A stretch of DNA of 41,943 nt, from NCBI GenBank assembly GCA_021781115.1, contig JAJXXL010000507.1, forward strand, positions 1 through 41,943, in the 5' to 3' direction. Positions 25,989 to 33,015 of this stretch are shown here, in pieces. A program made the position numbers and the translations under genes. The DNA is from Planctomycetota bacterium. Lineage in GTDB: Bacteria > Planctomycetota > Planctomycetia > Planctomycetales > Planctomycetaceae. A model generated the notes under the pieces. The model was not told the origin of the DNA, did no database searches, and worked only from the letters and a program-made list of their open reading frames with translations. Position 1 is the first letter of the stretch; every line of letters starts with the position of its first letter.

Positions 25989-26260
25989 GACAGAGCAGAC
26001 GTTTGAATCCCACCTGAATGGGTGTGCCTTTGGTGGCAACACTCCCCGCCTTAAGAAAGTCCCTCCCCAAATGAGGCCGTCGCAGGTTGCGGCCTTGGCC
26101 GATGCGTCGCCAGTCTACGGTGCCGTCGTCGGATCGTGCCTGCATGAGCGTCGAAGTCGATGCGCAATCTGCTGCGGGTCGCAAGGGCCTGCCAAGGCGA
26201 CGCACAACGTGTGCGGCCGTCGTGCGTTGCGAGCGGCGAATCGGCGCGAAAGGAAAAACC

Positions 26261-26440
26261 ATGTCTTCAGTGTTTGCGTATTTCGACCCCGGTTCAGGCA
26301 GCCTTTTGTTGCAAGCACTTGTCGGCGGCAGCGCCGGCCTGATTGTCTTTGGCAAACTGCTGTGGGAATCGGCGCGGGGTTGGCTGCTGGGTTCGAGCCT
26401 CGAGCACCACGAGCCTTCGGCAGTTGCCGAAAGGGTCTGA
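26261..26440 (+). CDS. Small DPGSGS-motif membrane protein
   Basis: The product has only 59 residues. The start at 26261 is chosen because AAGGA lies just upstream and the product begins MSSVFAYFDPGSGSLLLQAL. The YFDPGSGS motif followed by one hydrophobic helix (VGGSAGLIVFGKLLW) recurs, as I recall it, in small proteins encoded beside surface-polysaccharide or phosphatase-superfamily genes. A short polar C-terminus follows. The methyltransferase gene starts 21 bp downstream. Likely a membrane subunit or anchor for the enzymes encoded next to it; the biochemical role is unknown. Confidence 0.75.
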   Translation: MSSVFAYFDPGSGSLLLQALVGGSAGLIVFGKLLWESARGWLLGSSLEHHEPSAVAERV

Positions 26441-26461
26441 CAAGCATGGGGCCGCCTGCCG

Positions 26462-27853
26462 ATGTTCGAGCCGGGTTCCTATCGCGACGCCACGAGCCGG
26501 GTCTTTTACGACGCTGGTGATGTGTACCGGGTATTGAACGCGACGGCGTTCGCCGATTGGCAAGCGTTGGCGGCATCGGAATTCGGGCGACGGCGGATGG
26601 CCGATGGCGGCCTCGTGCCGACTGAGCAGGTTCCCCCAAGCGAGATTCCCGCCAAAGTCGATCAGAGCGCATGGGCCGCGGTGCTCAAACACCAGACAAT
26701 TCCCTGGGTGTCTTATCCCTACGAATGGTCGTTTGGCATGCTGCGCGACGCGGGGTTGCTCACGCTCGAATTGCTCGACGACGCCCTGCATGAAAACCTG
26801 TCGTTGAAAGACGGGTCGGCATACAACGTGCAATTTGTCGGTGCGAAGCCGGTGTTTATCGACATTCCGTCGTTTCACCGCCTGTCGCCCGGCGAACCAT
26901 GGATTGGTTATCGTCAGTTTTGCCAGTTGTTTTTGTATCCCCTGTTTTTGCGGGCGTATCGCAACGTGCCGTTTCAGCCGTGGCTGCGCGGCAATCTTGA
27001 TGGCATCGACCCCGTGGCGTGTCGAAACCTGATGTCGCTGCGCGACCTGTTTCGCCCCGGCGTGTCTACGCACGTTTTTTTGCATGCTCGGCTTGATTCG
27101 CGGTTTGCCGACGCCGACCGCAGCCTGAGGGCCGAATTGCCCGCGGCAGGGTTCCAAAAGTCGCTGATCCAGGCGAATGTGCGGGGCCTGATCAAAATCC
27201 TGCGCAAACTCGAATGGCGGACGGCCAAAACCACTTGGTCTGACTACGCCCAGTGCAACTCCTACACGGCGGACGATCGCGCGCGCAAGGAGGCATTCGT
27301 GCGCGGCGTGGCGCAGTCGCGGCGGTGGCGCCGGGTGTGGGACCTGGGTTGCAACACGGGCGTGTTTTCGCGCATTGCGGCCGAGCACGCCGACTACGTC
27401 GTGGCGATGGACGGCGACCCGCTGGCGATCGAGCGACTCTATGCCGCACTGCAAGCCGAACGCAACCTGAAAATCCTGCCGCTGATCGCCAACGTTGCCG
27501 ACCCTGCCCCTAACCAGGGTTGGCGCGGTCGCGAGCGCAAGTCGGCCGCCGAGCGCGGCCGGCCCGAGTTGACGTTGTGCCTGGCGCTGCTGCACCACCT
27601 GGTGATTGGAGCCAACATTCCGTTACGCGAGGTGCTCGACTGGTTGGCCGATCTCACGCCAGGCCTGATCATTGAATTCGTCACAAAGCATGACCCCATG
27701 GTGCAGGTCCTGCTCCGTAACAAGCCCGACATTTACGCCGATTACGAACAGGAGCCGTTCGAGCGCATGCTCGCCGAGCGGTTTGAAATCGTGCGGCGTG
27801 AAACGTTGCAATCGGGCACCCGTACCCTGTATTTTGCGGTGGCGTACACGTGA
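26462..27853 (+). CDS. SAM-dependent methyltransferase of a surface-polymer operon
   Basis: The product has 463 residues. The N-terminal half (1-270) is a substrate or partner domain with conserved-looking blocks: FEPGSYRDATSRVFY, NVQFVGAKPVFIDIPSFH and IGYRQFCQLFLYPLFLRAYR. The C-terminal half is a class I methyltransferase. Motif I is VWDLGCNTGVFSRIAAE, the acidic loop is VVAMDGD, and motif IV is replaced by CLALLHHLV. I recall this two-part layout from proteins annotated as NoeA-like in nodulation and polysaccharide loci, but I have not checked it. The stop overlaps the next start (GTGA), so the two are co-translated. The methyl acceptor is probably a glycan or lipid-linked group. Confidence 0.84.
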   Translation: MFEPGSYRDATSRVFYDAGDVYRVLNATAFADWQALAASEFGRRRMADGGLVPTEQVPPSEIPAKVDQSAWAAVLKHQTIPWVSYPYEWSFGMLRDAGLLTLELLDDALHENLSLKDGSAYNVQFVGAKPVFIDIPSFHRLSPGEPWIGYRQFCQLFLYPLFLRAYRNVPFQPWLRGNLDGIDPVACRNLMSLRDLFRPGVSTHVFLHARLDSRFADADRSLRAELPAAGFQKSLIQANVRGLIKILRKLEWRTAKTTWSDYAQCNSYTADDRARKEAFVRGVAQSRRWRRVWDLGCNTGVFSRIAAEHADYVVAMDGDPLAIERLYAALQAERNLKILPLIANVADPAPNQGWRGRERKSAAERGRPELTLCLALLHHLVIGANIPLREVLDWLADLTPGLIIEFVTKHDPMVQVLLRNKPDIYADYEQEPFERMLAERFEIVRRETLQSGTRTLYFAVAYT

Positions 27854-30114
27854 GCCTGTGGGGTCAGTTCCGTTCGTGGGTAGCGCTGCGGCTGCGCGCC
27901 GCGGCTGAATGCAGCGCGGCAGCGGCCATTCCGGGCTGGGGCGCAGCGCTGCACGTCGTCGTGCTGCTCAGTTTTGTCGTGTCGGGGCCAATGTATCAAA
28001 ATCTTGAACGCCGATCGGCATTTCTTACCGACCACGGGTTCGGAGCGGCCGGCCTGATCGCGATCGTGTTTGTGTTATCGCTGCTGCTGCCCGCGGTGTT
28101 CCTTGCGGCTGAAGCCGTTGCCGGCCGCATCGGGCCGCAGGCCCGGGCTTTGCTGGACGCGGCCTTGATCAGCCTGTTGATCCTCGGTATGGCCTGCTTG
28201 ACTGCGAACCGGGTCGTAGCACCAGCCGACGGTTTGGCGCATTCGATGAGGGTGTTGGGGCTCGCAGTAGCGCTGGGTGTCGGGGGCGTTTATAGTTATT
28301 GGAAATTCGGGAAGATGCGGCAAGTGGTCAGCGTCGCCGCACCGGTCGTCGGGCTGTTTCCTGCGCTGTTTCTGATGCATCCGACGAGCACGGCACTGAT
28401 GTTCACGCCCGTCGTGGAATACGTCGAGGCGCGCAACCCGGTGCCGGTTGTGATGATTGTATTTGACGAGTTCTGCGGGATGACGCTGCTCGATGAAGAC
28501 CATGCGATCGATTCGGTACGATACCCGAACTTTGCCGCCCTGGCTCAAGGCGCGACGTGGTTTCGCAACGCGACGAGCGTGCACCCCCGCACCGACAATG
28601 CCGTGCCGGCGATTCTGACGGGCAACTACCCGCGGGGCGTCGATCAGCGGCTGCTCCTCGCGCACCATCCGCAAAATCTGCTGTCGCTGCTGTTCAAAAC
28701 GGGCCAGTACGAGCTGGTGGCATTCGAACCATTCACGCGGCTGTCTCCCCCCGACCGCGAACAGGGGATCGTGGAACAGTTGACTCTATTCCAGCAATTG
28801 CGCGCGGTGTTCGCGATTCTGCCCCGGGCATACCTGCACGACCTGCTGCCCAACGATTTGCCGTTCGTCAGCTTGCCGGAGGTGCCGCTGACCTGGTTCG
28901 GCGTACGGGCATTTCTGAAGGCCGAGAACGACAAGACGCATGGCACGTTTCACCCCGGATGGAATTTGAATCGCGACGAGCAATGCAACGATTTCCTGCG
29001 ACTGTTACGCCCGCCCGACAGGCCCCGCCTGCACTTCATGCATGTCGTGCTGCCCCATTTTTCGTGGGTGTTCCTGCCCTCAGGGCGGAAATACGAAAAG
29101 GACGACCGGCACGTCAGGCAACCGGCGATTTTCGGGGCCGAAAACGAACTGGGCGAAGACTACCGCGGCGACGAACTCGCCGCGCTGCATGGCCAGCAGC
29201 GGTATATTCTGCAGGTTCAGTTTGTCGACCGGTTCATCGGGCGGCTGATCGACCGGCTGAAAGAGGTGGGACTGTACGACCGCTGCCTGCTGGTGGTAAT
29301 GGCCGACCACGGCTGCGCGTTTCGCGCGAACTCGTCGCGTCGGGCACCCGGCAAAACGAACCTGGCCGATATTCTGTCGATTCCAATGTTCATCAAGCAG
29401 CCGGGTCAGAAAACGGGGCAGGTCAGCGATCGCAATGTGCTGTCGATTGACGCCTATCCGGCGGTCACCGATGCGTTGGGAATTGCACTCGAACAGCCGA
29501 TCGACGGACAGTCGGCCCTCGATGAAAGGCTTCCAGAACGGAAGGAAAAAGTGTACGTCGATGGTGGCCGAAAGTTCACCGTCGATGCGCATTTCTCCGC
29601 CAAGTACGAAACGCTGGAGCTGATGCTGTCGCGGTTCGGGTCGGGCCGCAAGCCGGGCGGGTTGTTCCGGATCGGCCCGCACGCCGAACTGGTTGATCGC
29701 CCCGTGGCCGAACTGAACCTCGGGCCGCCAGCCGATTTTCAGGTGGGGCTGATTCAATATGGCGATACGCTCAGCGAAGACCCGGCAGAGGTCGTGCCGT
29801 GTTTCATGATCGGCGGCGTCGCCGGCCGCGAGGGATGGCACCCCGGCAACGGGCGGCCAAATTCATTGCCCGAACTGCCGGTGAATCTGGCGATTGCCGT
29901 TAATGGCACAGTGCGGGCCGTCACCCGCACCTTTCAGGACGCCGAAATTCGCGACACTTGGGAGGCAATGCTGCCTGAATCGGCGTTTCACGTCGGCAAG
30001 AATGACGTGCAGATCTACGCAGTCGGCAACAATGCGGGCCGGCTGACCTTGCGTCCCTGCCCCACGCGACAACTCAGGCACAGTGAACAGCGGTCGTATG
30101 TGCAACCACCATGA
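27850..30114 (+). CDS. Membrane-anchored sulfatase/alkaline phosphatase superfamily protein
   Basis: The product has 754 residues. Translation starts at GTG 27850, overlapping the methyltransferase stop. The first 190 residues hold about five hydrophobic segments, so the enzyme is embedded in the membrane with its catalytic part outside. The sulfatase-like core begins at VVMIVFDEFCGMTLLD (first metal Asp), with the probable nucleophile region at HPRTDNAVPAILTG. Further on are HVVLPHFSW and the metal-binding VVMADHGCAF. The nucleophile position shows Thr rather than the Cys/Ser of the sulfatase signature, so it may be a phosphoethanolamine- or glycerophosphate-type transferase. A roughly 200-residue C-terminal extension is of unknown role. 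Confidence 0.84.
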   Translation: MSLWGQFRSWVALRLRAAAECSAAAAIPGWGAALHVVVLLSFVVSGPMYQNLERRSAFLTDHGFGAAGLIAIVFVLSLLLPAVFLAAEAVAGRIGPQARALLDAALISLLILGMACLTANRVVAPADGLAHSMRVLGLAVALGVGGVYSYWKFGKMRQVVSVAAPVVGLFPALFLMHPTSTALMFTPVVEYVEARNPVPVVMIVFDEFCGMTLLDEDHAIDSVRYPNFAALAQGATWFRNATSVHPRTDNAVPAILTGNYPRGVDQRLLLAHHPQNLLSLLFKTGQYELVAFEPFTRLSPPDREQGIVEQLTLFQQLRAVFAILPRAYLHDLLPNDLPFVSLPEVPLTWFGVRAFLKAENDKTHGTFHPGWNLNRDEQCNDFLRLLRPPDRPRLHFMHVVLPHFSWVFLPSGRKYEKDDRHVRQPAIFGAENELGEDYRGDELAALHGQQRYILQVQFVDRFIGRLIDRLKEVGLYDRCLLVVMADHGCAFRANSSRRAPGKTNLADILSIPMFIKQPGQKTGQVSDRNVLSIDAYPAVTDALGIALEQPIDGQSALDERLPERKEKVYVDGGRKFTVDAHFSAKYETLELMLSRFGSGRKPGGLFRIGPHAELVDRPVAELNLGPPADFQVGLIQYGDTLSEDPAEVVPCFMIGGVAGREGWHPGNGRPNSLPELPVNLAIAVNGTVRAVTRTFQDAEIRDTWEAMLPESAFHVGKNDVQIYAVGNNAGRLTLRPCPTRQLRHSEQRSYVQPP

Positions 30115-30220: not shown

Positions 30221-30958
30221 TCAATGATCGGTGGCGACGTTCGCGATTGCGGTCATAAGATCGGTTGAGAATCGTTCGGCCTCGGCGCACGCCCCGCGCA
30301 CACCCGCCCAGGACGCGATCATGTCGGCTTTTCGGTCTGCATAGCGCGAAACATTTTTCTTAGGGCGGATTTCGCCTGGGCGGTAGCGAACGAGGCGTTG
30401 GCCAGCGGGTTTGGCTGCGAGTCGCACCGATGCGTCATCGTGACATTCAACATCAGGGTGAATCGACGCAGGATCGTCAGGATACAGGGCGACAAGCACC
30501 CACGTTTCGGTGTTGCGCGACGGCGTGCACGGCACAACGCGATCTGGCCAATTTGGCGAAGCGATCCAGCGCAAAATGACGCGGCGGAGCGCATCGGTCG
30601 TTGCCGAACAAGGGGGGCAGGGGCGTTCGCACGGAAGGTCGTGAACCGTCTCGGCGATGTTACCGCTGCCGTAGGTTTTTCCGGCTACATCGGCGTCCAA
30701 ATGAATGACGAGCAAGTCGTGAAAATCGAACAAGACATTCGACGCGATCGCCCCGCGTCCCTGCGCCACCGCTTGACGGCACCATCGATAAACGCCGGTC
30801 CAGCCACCACCGCGTTGACCGAACGACTCAGTGGATTCAGGTTGCAATTGCGTGACGACGAAGTCGCGGCTGGGCACCAGGGCGGCGACGATTGCCTCGA
30901 TCACGATGCGGTCCGTCGGGCCTTCCGACACGATCGCGAGACGGATTGGATCAGACAT
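30221..30958 (-). CDS. TOPRIM-like protein paired with an ATPase (possible defence effector)
   Basis: The product has 245 residues and starts at 30958 (MSDPIRLAIVSEGPTD), overlapping the upstream ATPase stop by eight bases. The N-terminal EGPTD motif after a beta strand, plus LLVIHLDADVAG, gives the Glu and Asp-x-Asp pattern of TOPRIM folds. The family appears close to DUF4276, and PSRNTETWVLVAL is the conserved E-x-W segment of such proteins. No membrane segment is present. In known AAA/TOPRIM pairs such as PARIS and OLD-type systems, the TOPRIM part is a nuclease released or activated by the ATPase; here that is inference. Confidence 0.78.
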   Translation of the reverse strand: MSDPIRLAIVSEGPTDRIVIEAIVAALVPSRDFVVTQLQPESTESFGQRGGGWTGVYRWCRQAVAQGRGAIASNVLFDFHDLLVIHLDADVAGKTYGSGNIAETVHDLPCERPCPPCSATTDALRRVILRWIASPNWPDRVVPCTPSRNTETWVLVALYPDDPASIHPDVECHDDASVRLAAKPAGQRLVRYRPGEIRPKKNVSRYADRKADMIASWAGVRGACAEAERFSTDLMTAIANVATDH

Positions 30959-32135
30959 TTGCCACGCCCCCCAAATGCCCCATGACCCACAACCGAGACA
31001 ATGTCCAGCCGTCTTTCGACAGCTTTTGCAAGCGATTGTCAAACGTGACCCGGCTGACGACGGTTCTTCCGGACGTGGTTCGCGATACCGTGAACAACCG
31101 CACGCGATCATCCTGGAGTTTCAGACCATCCAGCGCCAGCGGGTTGTGCGTCGTCAGCAGGATCTGCGGCGGCAAATCAGACGAAATTACCCAGTCGCAG
31201 AGATTACGCATCAACTGACAGGTCAAGCGCGGATTTAGCCCATGATCGACATTGTCAATGGCGAACAGCGACGGCGAGTTTGGACTCGCCGCTAAAACCG
31301 CTGTAAACAAAACGTACAGGGCGCCTTCGCTGGCGTCGTACCCCGACAGGAGGTTGTGTTTCTCTTTCATGAAGCGGTCGCGAAACCTGATGACGTGTCG
31401 GGCGCCGCCCGCCGCATTCGACACGGGGACCGTACTCGACGGCGAGGCGGTAATTGACTTTGCCCAGTCGATCATCGCAAGCGCGTCGTTTGAAATCTGC
31501 CGCGCCTGCGCGCTCTTTGAGCGTGACCATAACACCTTCAACACGGCCGCGGTCAGCCCCCCGCCTGAAAGCCCTATGGGCTCGCGCATTTGCTGATCGG
31601 GAACGAGCCCGCGCAACGTCGGTGTAGTGGGCGTGAAAATCGCGTAATCGCGGAGTGCGTCGAGCAATTGCAACGCAGGGTCACCAGGACTGCGCTCGAC
31701 CGCCTTCAGCGCGGCCAGGCCCGCTTCGGGATTGGGCAGTGGCTTTGACCGATTCGACCTCCCCACAATTCGATGTCCCTGAGATTCCCAAGTTTCGGTA
31801 TGGTAGCTCCATGCCGGCTTGGGGTTGCTCGTCGGGTTGAATAACGCGACATCGTACCGGGAATCCTCGGATTGGCCGCTGAAAAAGATGTGTGGCGGCT
31901 GGTTCGTGTGGGCAAATGAAGTTTTGAATAACTGCGGCAACCCCGGGCGCACGCCGCGCCGCAGCAGGCTTTCATCGTCAACGCGACCGCTCGCCGCCGC
32001 CGAAAGCACGCCGATCGCCTCGAGCAGATTGCTCTTGCCGCTGCCATTGGCGCCAATGAATACATTCAGCAGCCCGAGGTCGAACTCCAGCGACTCGATG
32101 GACTTGAATCCACGAATTTGAACCTTGGTGAGCAT
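30951..32135 (-). CDS. AAA (ABC-like/OLD-type) ATPase paired with a TOPRIM-like protein
   Basis: The product has 394 residues. The start at 32135 begins MLTKVQIRGFKSIESLEFDL, the usual opening of RecF/OLD-type ATPases; a longer frame to 32216 is less likely and overlaps the HAD gene. Walker A is FIGANGSGKSNLLEAIG. A long helical insertion follows, then a signature-like GYDASEGALYVLF. Walker B is SLFAIDNVDHGLNPRL, where the usual catalytic Glu after the Asp is Asn. The H-motif is LLTTHNPLALDGL. It lies 40 bp after a HAD gene on the same strand, and the TOPRIM-like gene overlaps it. As the sensor or scaffold of a two-gene phage-defence-like module it would hold or gate the partner. Confidence 0.85.
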   Translation of the reverse strand: MLTKVQIRGFKSIESLEFDLGLLNVFIGANGSGKSNLLEAIGVLSAAASGRVDDESLLRRGVRPGLPQLFKTSFAHTNQPPHIFFSGQSEDSRYDVALFNPTSNPKPAWSYHTETWESQGHRIVGRSNRSKPLPNPEAGLAALKAVERSPGDPALQLLDALRDYAIFTPTTPTLRGLVPDQQMREPIGLSGGGLTAAVLKVLWSRSKSAQARQISNDALAMIDWAKSITASPSSTVPVSNAAGGARHVIRFRDRFMKEKHNLLSGYDASEGALYVLFTAVLAASPNSPSLFAIDNVDHGLNPRLTCQLMRNLCDWVISSDLPPQILLTTHNPLALDGLKLQDDRVRLFTVSRTTSGRTVVSRVTFDNRLQKLSKDGWTLSRLWVMGHLGGVANV

Positions 32136-32175
32136 TGTGTGAACCAGCCCCATTCCATCGGCAGGAACGCCGCGT

Positions 32176-33015
32176 TCAGGAAGTGCGATAGCCCATGAGC
32201 CGCAGCAGGGGTGCACTGTCGCGATAGTCGGGAATGATCACATCGGCGCCCGCGCGAATCAGCCGCGAGCGCTTCCATTCATTGATGCCGGTCCGGTGCT
32301 TTTCGTCGCTGGCGACCCCCACGGCGATGCCGCCGGCGTGTTTGACTTCTTCGATTTCGACGTATCCGTCGCCGAAGCCGAGCAAGCCGCCGGGGCCCAG
32401 GTGGTTTTCACGGACCAGTCGTTCAATGACCATCTTCTTGGAAAAGTTCTTGTAGTCGTCGAGCGCTCCGGCGACGCGCGGGCCAAAGAATTTTGCCAGA
32501 CCGAGGGCGTTGAGTTCGTTCTGCACGAACGCCAGGTCGGTGCCGCTGGCGAGGTACAAATCGCAGCCCAGGGCCGCCAGGGCCGCCAGCAGCTCGCGCG
32601 AACCGGGCACGGTAAGCAGATCCTGATCGACGCGGTTTTCTTCAAGGTCGGCGACGCGGCTCTCGATTCGCTGCCATAGCAAATCGTGGTATTCGCGCTT
32701 GTAATCGAGCGGGTCGCGCGGGGTTCCGCCGCGATGGCGAATTTCGTCGGCCAGTTGGATCATCTGGTAGATCGTTTGTTTGCCGTTCAAGCGCATCACA
32801 AATTCTTCGACCTGGTTGGCCAGGTCAGCCCGGGTTTCGGTTGTGGGCGTCGCCTCCAGGTGTTTGACCATCATGGGGATCATGACTTCCGGCCACCCCT
32901 CGCGGACGAGCGACAGCGTGCCGTCGAAATCGAACAAGACCGCTCGAGGCCCGGCGGCCGGTGCGGCCTGAAGTTCGGGGTTGATGATTTCAATGCGCGT
33001 ACCAGGTAAAAACAT
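32176..33015 (-). CDS. HAD family hydrolase (phosphoglycolate phosphatase-like)
   Basis: The product has 279 residues. Motif I is AVLFDFDGTLSLVREGW, motif II is LYLASGTD, the Lys is in KKMVIERL, and motif IV is LLGFGDGYVEIEEVKHAGG. The cap region is helical (GKQTIYQMIQLADEIRHRGG). All catalytic residues are present, so it should be an active phosphatase on a small phosphorylated molecule; the substrate is unknown. It starts 63 bp after the LUD-domain gene and is followed closely by the ATPase gene. Confidence 0.9.
   Translation of the reverse strand: MFLPGTRIEIINPELQAAPAAGPRAVLFDFDGTLSLVREGWPEVMIPMMVKHLEATPTTETRADLANQVEEFVMRLNGKQTIYQMIQLADEIRHRGGTPRDPLDYKREYHDLLWQRIESRVADLEENRVDQDLLTVPGSRELLAALAALGCDLYLASGTDLAFVQNELNALGLAKFFGPRVAGALDDYKNFSKKMVIERLVRENHLGPGGLLGFGDGYVEIEEVKHAGGIAVGVASDEKHRTGINEWKRSRLIRAGADVIIPDYRDSAPLLRLMGYRTS

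Follow-up and report, generated by a model that had tools for sequence, protein, structure and literature searches.

A tandem of three genes at positions 26261–30114 of contig JAJXXL010000507.1 from a Planctomycetota bacterium is almost certainly a NoeA–NoeB module in which a microprotein of 59 residues is a genuine component. The window, as the whole stretch analyzed is called here, has 41,943 nucleotides and belongs to a draft genome of 5.74 Mb. The three open reading frames (ORFs), all on the + strand, were re-found with the spacing reported in an earlier note on this sequence. The microprotein gene (26261–26440) encodes a protein beginning MSSVFAYFDPGSGSLLLQALVGGSAGLIVFGKLLWESARG and is preceded by an AAGGA ribosome-binding site at 26250–26254, six bases before the first ATG. 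A 21-bp spacer (26441–26461) separates it from the gene of a 463-residue NoeA homolog (26462–27853), which consists of an N-terminal atypical kinase-like domain and a C-terminal class I S-adenosylmethionine (SAM) methyltransferase. A GTGA start/stop overlap (27850–27853) joins the latter gene to that of a 754-residue NoeB-like protein (27850–30114) with five transmembrane helices, an alkaline-phosphatase-superfamily domain, and a C-terminal β domain. The earlier note knew of no assigned function for the microprotein. The microprotein is indeed unnamed and has no model in Pfam or NCBIfam, but the set itself is identifiable as the NoeA/NoeB pair. This enzyme pair and its conserved neighborhood are already known (PMC9758233). 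Added here are the microprotein as a near-universal third component of definite predicted topology, its presence within the classical nodulation operon, and a correction of the sulfatase label of the third protein.

The microprotein accompanies noeA across distant bacteria. The NoeA search gave 80 genome loci and three IMG/VR contigs, with at least 584 confirmed relatives among the matches listed. Among these, noeA loci occur in Planctomycetota, Binatota, Alpha- and Gammaproteobacteria, Acidobacteriota, Actinomycetota, Spirochaetes, Bacteroidota/Ignavibacteria, Calditrichota, Chloroflexota, Myxococcota, and Armatimonadota. In a microprotein profile search, 94 of 101 distinct loci from at least 11 phyla have the microprotein adjacent to noeA; among these, the match in L097 is weak and lacks the helix. 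In six of the other seven loci the contig ends on the relevant side, and the seventh (L016) is an outlier of 28% identity. NoeB-like genes lie inside the fetched region in 80 of the 101 loci, on either strand and on either side. Differences between the microprotein genes of Sinorhizobium meliloti and Rhizobium fall mostly at third codon positions. This substitution pattern and the occurrence of homologs beside noeA in so many phyla indicate that the microprotein is a real conserved gene.

Whole genomes give the same picture. Among 246 Planctomycetota genomes, 19 have the microprotein, 23 have noeA, and 17 have NoeB. Each of the 19 with the microprotein also contains noeA (Fisher p = 8e-25, uncorrected for kinship), and 16 of the 17 NoeB genomes are also noeA genomes. 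Of the four noeA genomes without a microprotein, two are weak hits, another is the divergent G018, and the last is cut by a contig end. Likewise, all 61 plasmids of rhizobial Medicago symbionts with noeA carry the microprotein. The earlier note had proposed a coupled operon and suggested looking for the three families together elsewhere. They do co-occur, and both the coupled operon and a functional set of three are strongly supported. It is barely credible, by contrast, that the microprotein is a neutral operon passenger with no role in the NoeA/NoeB pathway, given its genome-wide co-occurrence with noeA and its conservation beside that gene despite changed gene orders.

The second protein is a member of the NoeA family, as judged from full-length similarity and the presence of both domains in sequence and model. 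Pfam sees only a weak methyltransferase domain in it, and the earlier note described a two-domain methyltransferase. That domain stands, but the other one is kinase-like and the whole is a fusion of the NoeA type. A translated plasmid search matched rhizobial NoeA at 34.8–35.6% identity over 98% of the length. Full-length plasmid homologs are found in 57 Sinorhizobium, three Rhizobium, and one Ensifer records, several of them annotated as NoeA; S. meliloti NoeA shares 35% identity with the window protein over the full length. The AlphaFold2 model has a predicted local distance difference test (pLDDT) score of 92.7 and contains both domains.

The kinase-like domain spans approximately residues 1–215 (26462–27106). 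R23, D117, N122, and D134 are invariant in an alignment of 49 NoeA sequences from many phyla, and the spacing of five between D117 and N122 is like that of PKA. These four residues match the conserved kinase residues of the Lani_1194/NoeA family, which are an arginine in place of K72 and the equivalents of D166, N171, and D184 (PMC9758233). The methyltransferase domain (approximately residues 259–463; 27236–27850) was delineated by Pfam, alignment, and Foldseek. It contains a DLGxNxG motif, and G296, N298, and D319 are likewise invariant. In the Foldseek search, the Nod-factor methyltransferase NodS ranked first and WbdD third, both via the methyltransferase domain, and methyltransferase matches filled the output. 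A separate match of the model over its whole length is A0A481Z196 of Mimivirus LCMiAC01 in BFVD (496 columns, TMq 0.62, 14% identity), which suggests a kinase–methyltransferase fold in a giant virus. A defence role was considered and rejected; just a 21-bit Mad2 match in the methyltransferase region pointed that way.

The arrangement in the window closely resembles that of S. meliloti, whose nodL-noeA-noeB operon lies under nod box n5 in the account of Ardourel et al. (1995) as cited in PMC9758233. The operon is ordered nodL, a 71-residue ‘hypothetical protein’ that is the microprotein, noeA, and noeB. In the window set, NoeA and NoeB come in the same order and a microprotein of this kind immediately precedes noeA, but an adjoining nodL is lacking. 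The rhizobial microprotein carries a full signal peptide, whereas that of the window has six residues before the conserved tyrosine. Genetically, noeA and noeB are known for a role in host-range nodulation, which is linked to Nod factors of the lipo-chitooligosaccharide type (PMC9758233, PMC4053727). Many Medicago truncatula genotypes are not nodulated by a natural S. meliloti strain whose noeA is truncated, and the authors suggest that noeA may be the cause (PMC4053727).

A second counterpart is the Legionella Lani_1194 family, of which NoeA and NoeB are named homologs and whose members are proposed as effectors (PMC9758233). As in the window, an atypical kinase domain precedes a SAM methyltransferase. 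The conserved neighbors Lani_1193 and Lani_1195, the latter of alkaline-phosphatase fold, occur in 65% and 38%, respectively, of 816 neighborhoods of the family (PMC9758233). Lani_1193 is possibly this microprotein; if so, the conservation of the microprotein has been noticed before, but not its anatomy. The motif of the microprotein was not found in this sense in the literature searched.

The microprotein is predicted to be bitopic with its N terminus outside. Its conserved motif, YFDPGSGS (residues 7–14; 26279–26302), lies near the N terminus and is predicted to be exoplasmic. It is followed by a single predicted transmembrane helix with a face rich in glycine and alanine (residues 15–31; 26303–26353), located by alignment, column counts, and hydropathy, and by a predicted cytoplasmic segment composed of a juxtamembrane K-x-x-W sequence and a tail (26354–26437), assigned from column counts and charge. 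The counts cover 95 sequences; a script assigned their start codons, and individual ones may be wrong. In the consensus Y-x-D-(P/A)-G-(S/T)-G-S, Tyr1 and Asp3 are present in all 95 sequences, Ser8 in 86, and Gly7 in 85. Further along in motif numbering, Gln12 is found in 77 of 95 and a lysine or arginine at position 26 in 86, while the net charge past the helix is positive in 94. An A-x-A-like signal-peptide site precedes the motif in 41 members and a very short N terminus in 49; two members begin Met-Tyr-Leu-Asp. Such N termini, combined with a positive end after the helix, predict that the motif lies outside, that one helix crosses the membrane, and that the basic end is cytoplasmic. By its motif, helix, basic end, and position beside noeA, the window microprotein belongs to this DPGSGS family.

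Two members depart from this plan. The microprotein of L090 (5174–5974) has 122 residues and a cytoplasmic C-terminal extension resembling a zinc ribbon (CPTCG...CQYCG). In a Novosphingobium member (L020, 5771–5998), YLDAASAS replaces YLDPGSGS, and the signal peptide and helix are kept.

The position of the motif raises the idea that the microprotein is an acceptor or obligatory co-substrate, with NoeB attaching a phospho-sugar made by NoeA to an outer serine or threonine of YxDPG(S/T)GS. Ser8 is near-invariant, position 6 is mostly serine or threonine, and both positions are predicted to lie outside, just beside the membrane. However, some members lack a hydroxyl residue at one of the positions, with alanine at position 6 in 15 of 95 and glycine at position 8 in seven of 95, and no precedent was found in the literature searched. 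Such a role is highly improbable.

Several lines of evidence point to NoeA as the partner of the microprotein: the adjacency of the two genes, their co-occurrence, the tracking of their distances, and the topology. Where all three genes are present (67 loci), the distances between microproteins track those between NoeA proteins after correction for NoeB (partial r 0.46, p 5e-4), but not those between NoeB proteins after correction for NoeA (partial r 0.01). The microprotein also stays beside noeA in a genome in which NoeB lies 145 kb off (G025), and another genome has NoeB without any microprotein (G099). No natural protein was seen in which the microprotein is fused to NoeA or NoeB.

These observations bear on an alternative in which the microprotein mainly serves NoeB, as a transmembrane subunit or regulator, and its adjacency to noeA stems from joint inheritance only. 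A single LapB helix binds PbgA/YejM, which NoeB resembles, and the motif is predicted on the same side of the membrane as the NoeB catalytic domain. In addition, five microprotein copies lie away from noeA, all in noeA genomes, and three of them adjoin NoeB (L154, L155, and L156). One of these loci (L154, 2324–10693) holds a microprotein and two NoeB genes around a phosphonate cluster of PEP mutase/cytidylyltransferase, TPP decarboxylase, and Fe-ADH. The other two copies stand alone. One is in the genome of the window (contig C590; L105, 6599–6808), where the gene of a second microprotein, of 70 residues, has genes for a Ser/Thr kinase and an M19 dipeptidase on its two sides. On balance, with the distances following NoeA rather than NoeB and the G025 and G099 arrangements as they are, a role mainly in NoeB is unlikely. 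The earlier proposal that the microprotein is an anchor or adaptor is still the best guess, now with a predicted N-out single helix that is almost always encoded beside noeA and evolves with it.

The third protein belongs to the NoeB family, as suggested by its alkaline-phosphatase fold, its encoding beside NoeA, and shared catalytic columns. Five predicted transmembrane helices (residues 29–184; 27934–28401) were placed from the AlphaFold2 secondary structure. The exoplasmic catalytic domain (approximately residues 200–560; 28447–29529) contains D206, T248, H398, H403, D486, and H487, and these six residues are common to the window protein and S. meliloti NoeB, which are alignable at 15% identity. 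The C-terminal β-rich domain (29542–30102), defined by alignment and AlphaFold2, has no counterpart in S. meliloti NoeB, which is shorter (553 residues). The model (pLDDT 86.3) displays the five helices and an exoplasmic alkaline-phosphatase-type domain. In the Foldseek search, PbgA/YejM matched across the helices and catalytic domain combined; further matches were many sulfatases and phosphonate monoester hydrolases.

The Pfam Sulfatase model matches the protein with 72 bits, and the earlier note had placed it in the phosphatase/sulfatase superfamily. The assignment to a membrane protein of this superfamily is upheld, but not the sulfatase reading. Formylglycine sulfatases require a cysteine or serine at the nucleophile position (C/S-x-P-x-R). 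The column is threonine in 77 of 82 letters of the NoeB-like alignment, and in the window it is T248 (codon 28591–28593, by alignment with S. meliloti NoeB) within TDNAVPA. The protein is therefore not a formylglycine sulfatase, and a sulfatase role was rejected. LtaS/EptA-type phosphotransferases and nucleotide phosphodiesterases use threonine as their nucleophile, and the predicted type of the window protein is a phosphotransferase or phosphodiesterase. Like LtaS, EptA, and PbgA-type enzymes, NoeB has five helices followed by an exoplasmic domain, a threonine at the nucleophile position, and Asp and Asp-His ligand columns. Its scores against the LtaS and YejM equivalogs, however, are far under the NCBIfam curated cut-offs (24.1 of 970 and 15.8 of 825 bits, respectively), which marks it as a separate family.

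We assign a probability of roughly 0.45 to a whole picture drawn by analogy, in which a WbdD-like NoeA, held at the membrane by the microprotein, makes a phospho-product on which NoeB acts outside. NoeA would sit at the cytoplasmic face of the membrane in the manner of WbdD. The substrate would be an amphiphilic sugar, probably linked to a lipid, which the kinase-like domain phosphorylates and the methyltransferase domain then methylates, perhaps on the phosphate itself. The microprotein would be the membrane subunit of NoeA: its short N terminus, bearing YxDPG(S/T)GS, would lie outside, one helix would cross the membrane, and its inner end, basic and aromatic, would dock NoeA at the membrane close to the substrate. 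After exposure of the phospho-ester on the outside, NoeB, with its five helices and threonine nucleophile, may act on it as either a transferase or a phosphodiesterase.

The WbdD-like role is suggested by the match of the methyltransferase domain and by a divergent NoeA-like gene that has no microprotein and neighbors exporter genes of the Wzt and Wzm type (L160, 4707–9250), the kind of exporter that WbdD serves. In Escherichia coli O9a, WbdD phosphorylates the terminal mannose and then methylates that phosphate (PMC3482155). Both proteins combine a kinase and a SAM methyltransferase in one chain, and their methyltransferase folds match. WbdD, however, is ordered as methyltransferase, kinase, and coiled coil (PMC3482155), whereas the kinase-like domain of NoeA is N-terminal, so the WbdD architecture is not found. 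The present comparison showed no kinship in sequence between the kinase parts. The phospho-chemistry of NoeB is suggested by the threonine column, the five helices, the PbgA/YejM matches, and the NoeB–microprotein pair beside phosphonate genes.

A number of observations weigh against this picture. A profile of the kinase-like domain has no match in the PDB or Pfam, and its comparison with an ordinary Ser/Thr kinase by hhalign is not significant. As independent sequence proof of the kinase fold failed, kinase activity of NoeA is inferred from published modeling and the invariant residues. For all members found, moreover, the chemistry and substrate of NoeA and NoeB are inferred. The tracking of NoeA by the microprotein may come from tight linkage rather than contact, and the copies that are paired solely with NoeB show that the microprotein is not tied to NoeA alone. 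Finally, the flanking genes contain no conserved glycan pathway, and no recurrent neighbor family besides the set itself occurs in more than seven neighborhoods.

The genomic context also bears on the substrate. Glycosyltransferases account for four of 102 flanking ORFs in the window and its close relatives. With few glycosyltransferases and no recurrent neighbors, the set is a stand-alone unit in these genomes. Modification of a surface polymer, as the earlier note proposed, is plausible from more distant relatives but finds no backing in the genes around the window or its close relatives. The glycan links of the distant relatives are the Nod-factor operon, Novosphingobium polysaccharide genes, a glycosyltransferase in Smac51, and the Wzt/Wzm-type genes next to the divergent NoeA. 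Instead of a glycan particular to certain strains, the set may modify a common membrane lipid, such as a polyprenyl phosphate or the head group of a phospholipid. In both Gram-negative and Gram-positive phyla, the three genes stand alone amid unrelated, largely housekeeping neighbors, as would suit a substrate present in every host. The occurrence of relatives in glycan or exporter loci and the host-range nodulation role tied to Nod factors argue otherwise, and we consider a common lipid a doubtful substrate.

On the − strand directly upstream of the set lies a DDE transposase gene (PF13751; 24003–25736), possibly a sign of regional mobility. Downstream, also on the − strand (30221–32216), an AAA_21 ATPase and a partner gene match the PADLOC candidate defence system PDC-M31 (A 519 bits, B 230 bits). 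A phage origin of the set was considered and rejected, with no match in annotated phages. The three IMG/VR contigs carry noeA, the microprotein, and NoeB-like genes, and are too few to suggest a viral origin.

The genes noeA and noeB have been listed as host-range nodulation genes since 1995, and their classical operon holds one further gene. In a standard laboratory symbiont, this 71-codon microprotein gene is a clean genetic handle. The labels ‘sulfatase’ and ‘methyltransferase’ give way to testable ones, namely a Thr-nucleophile phosphotransferase and a kinase-like protein fused to a methyltransferase. The plant-symbiosis gene set is also widened into a general bacterial membrane module. 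Should the microprotein prove to be the acceptor, it would represent a new kind of microprotein-anchored surface phosphoglycan, extending from planctomycetes to the alfalfa symbiont.

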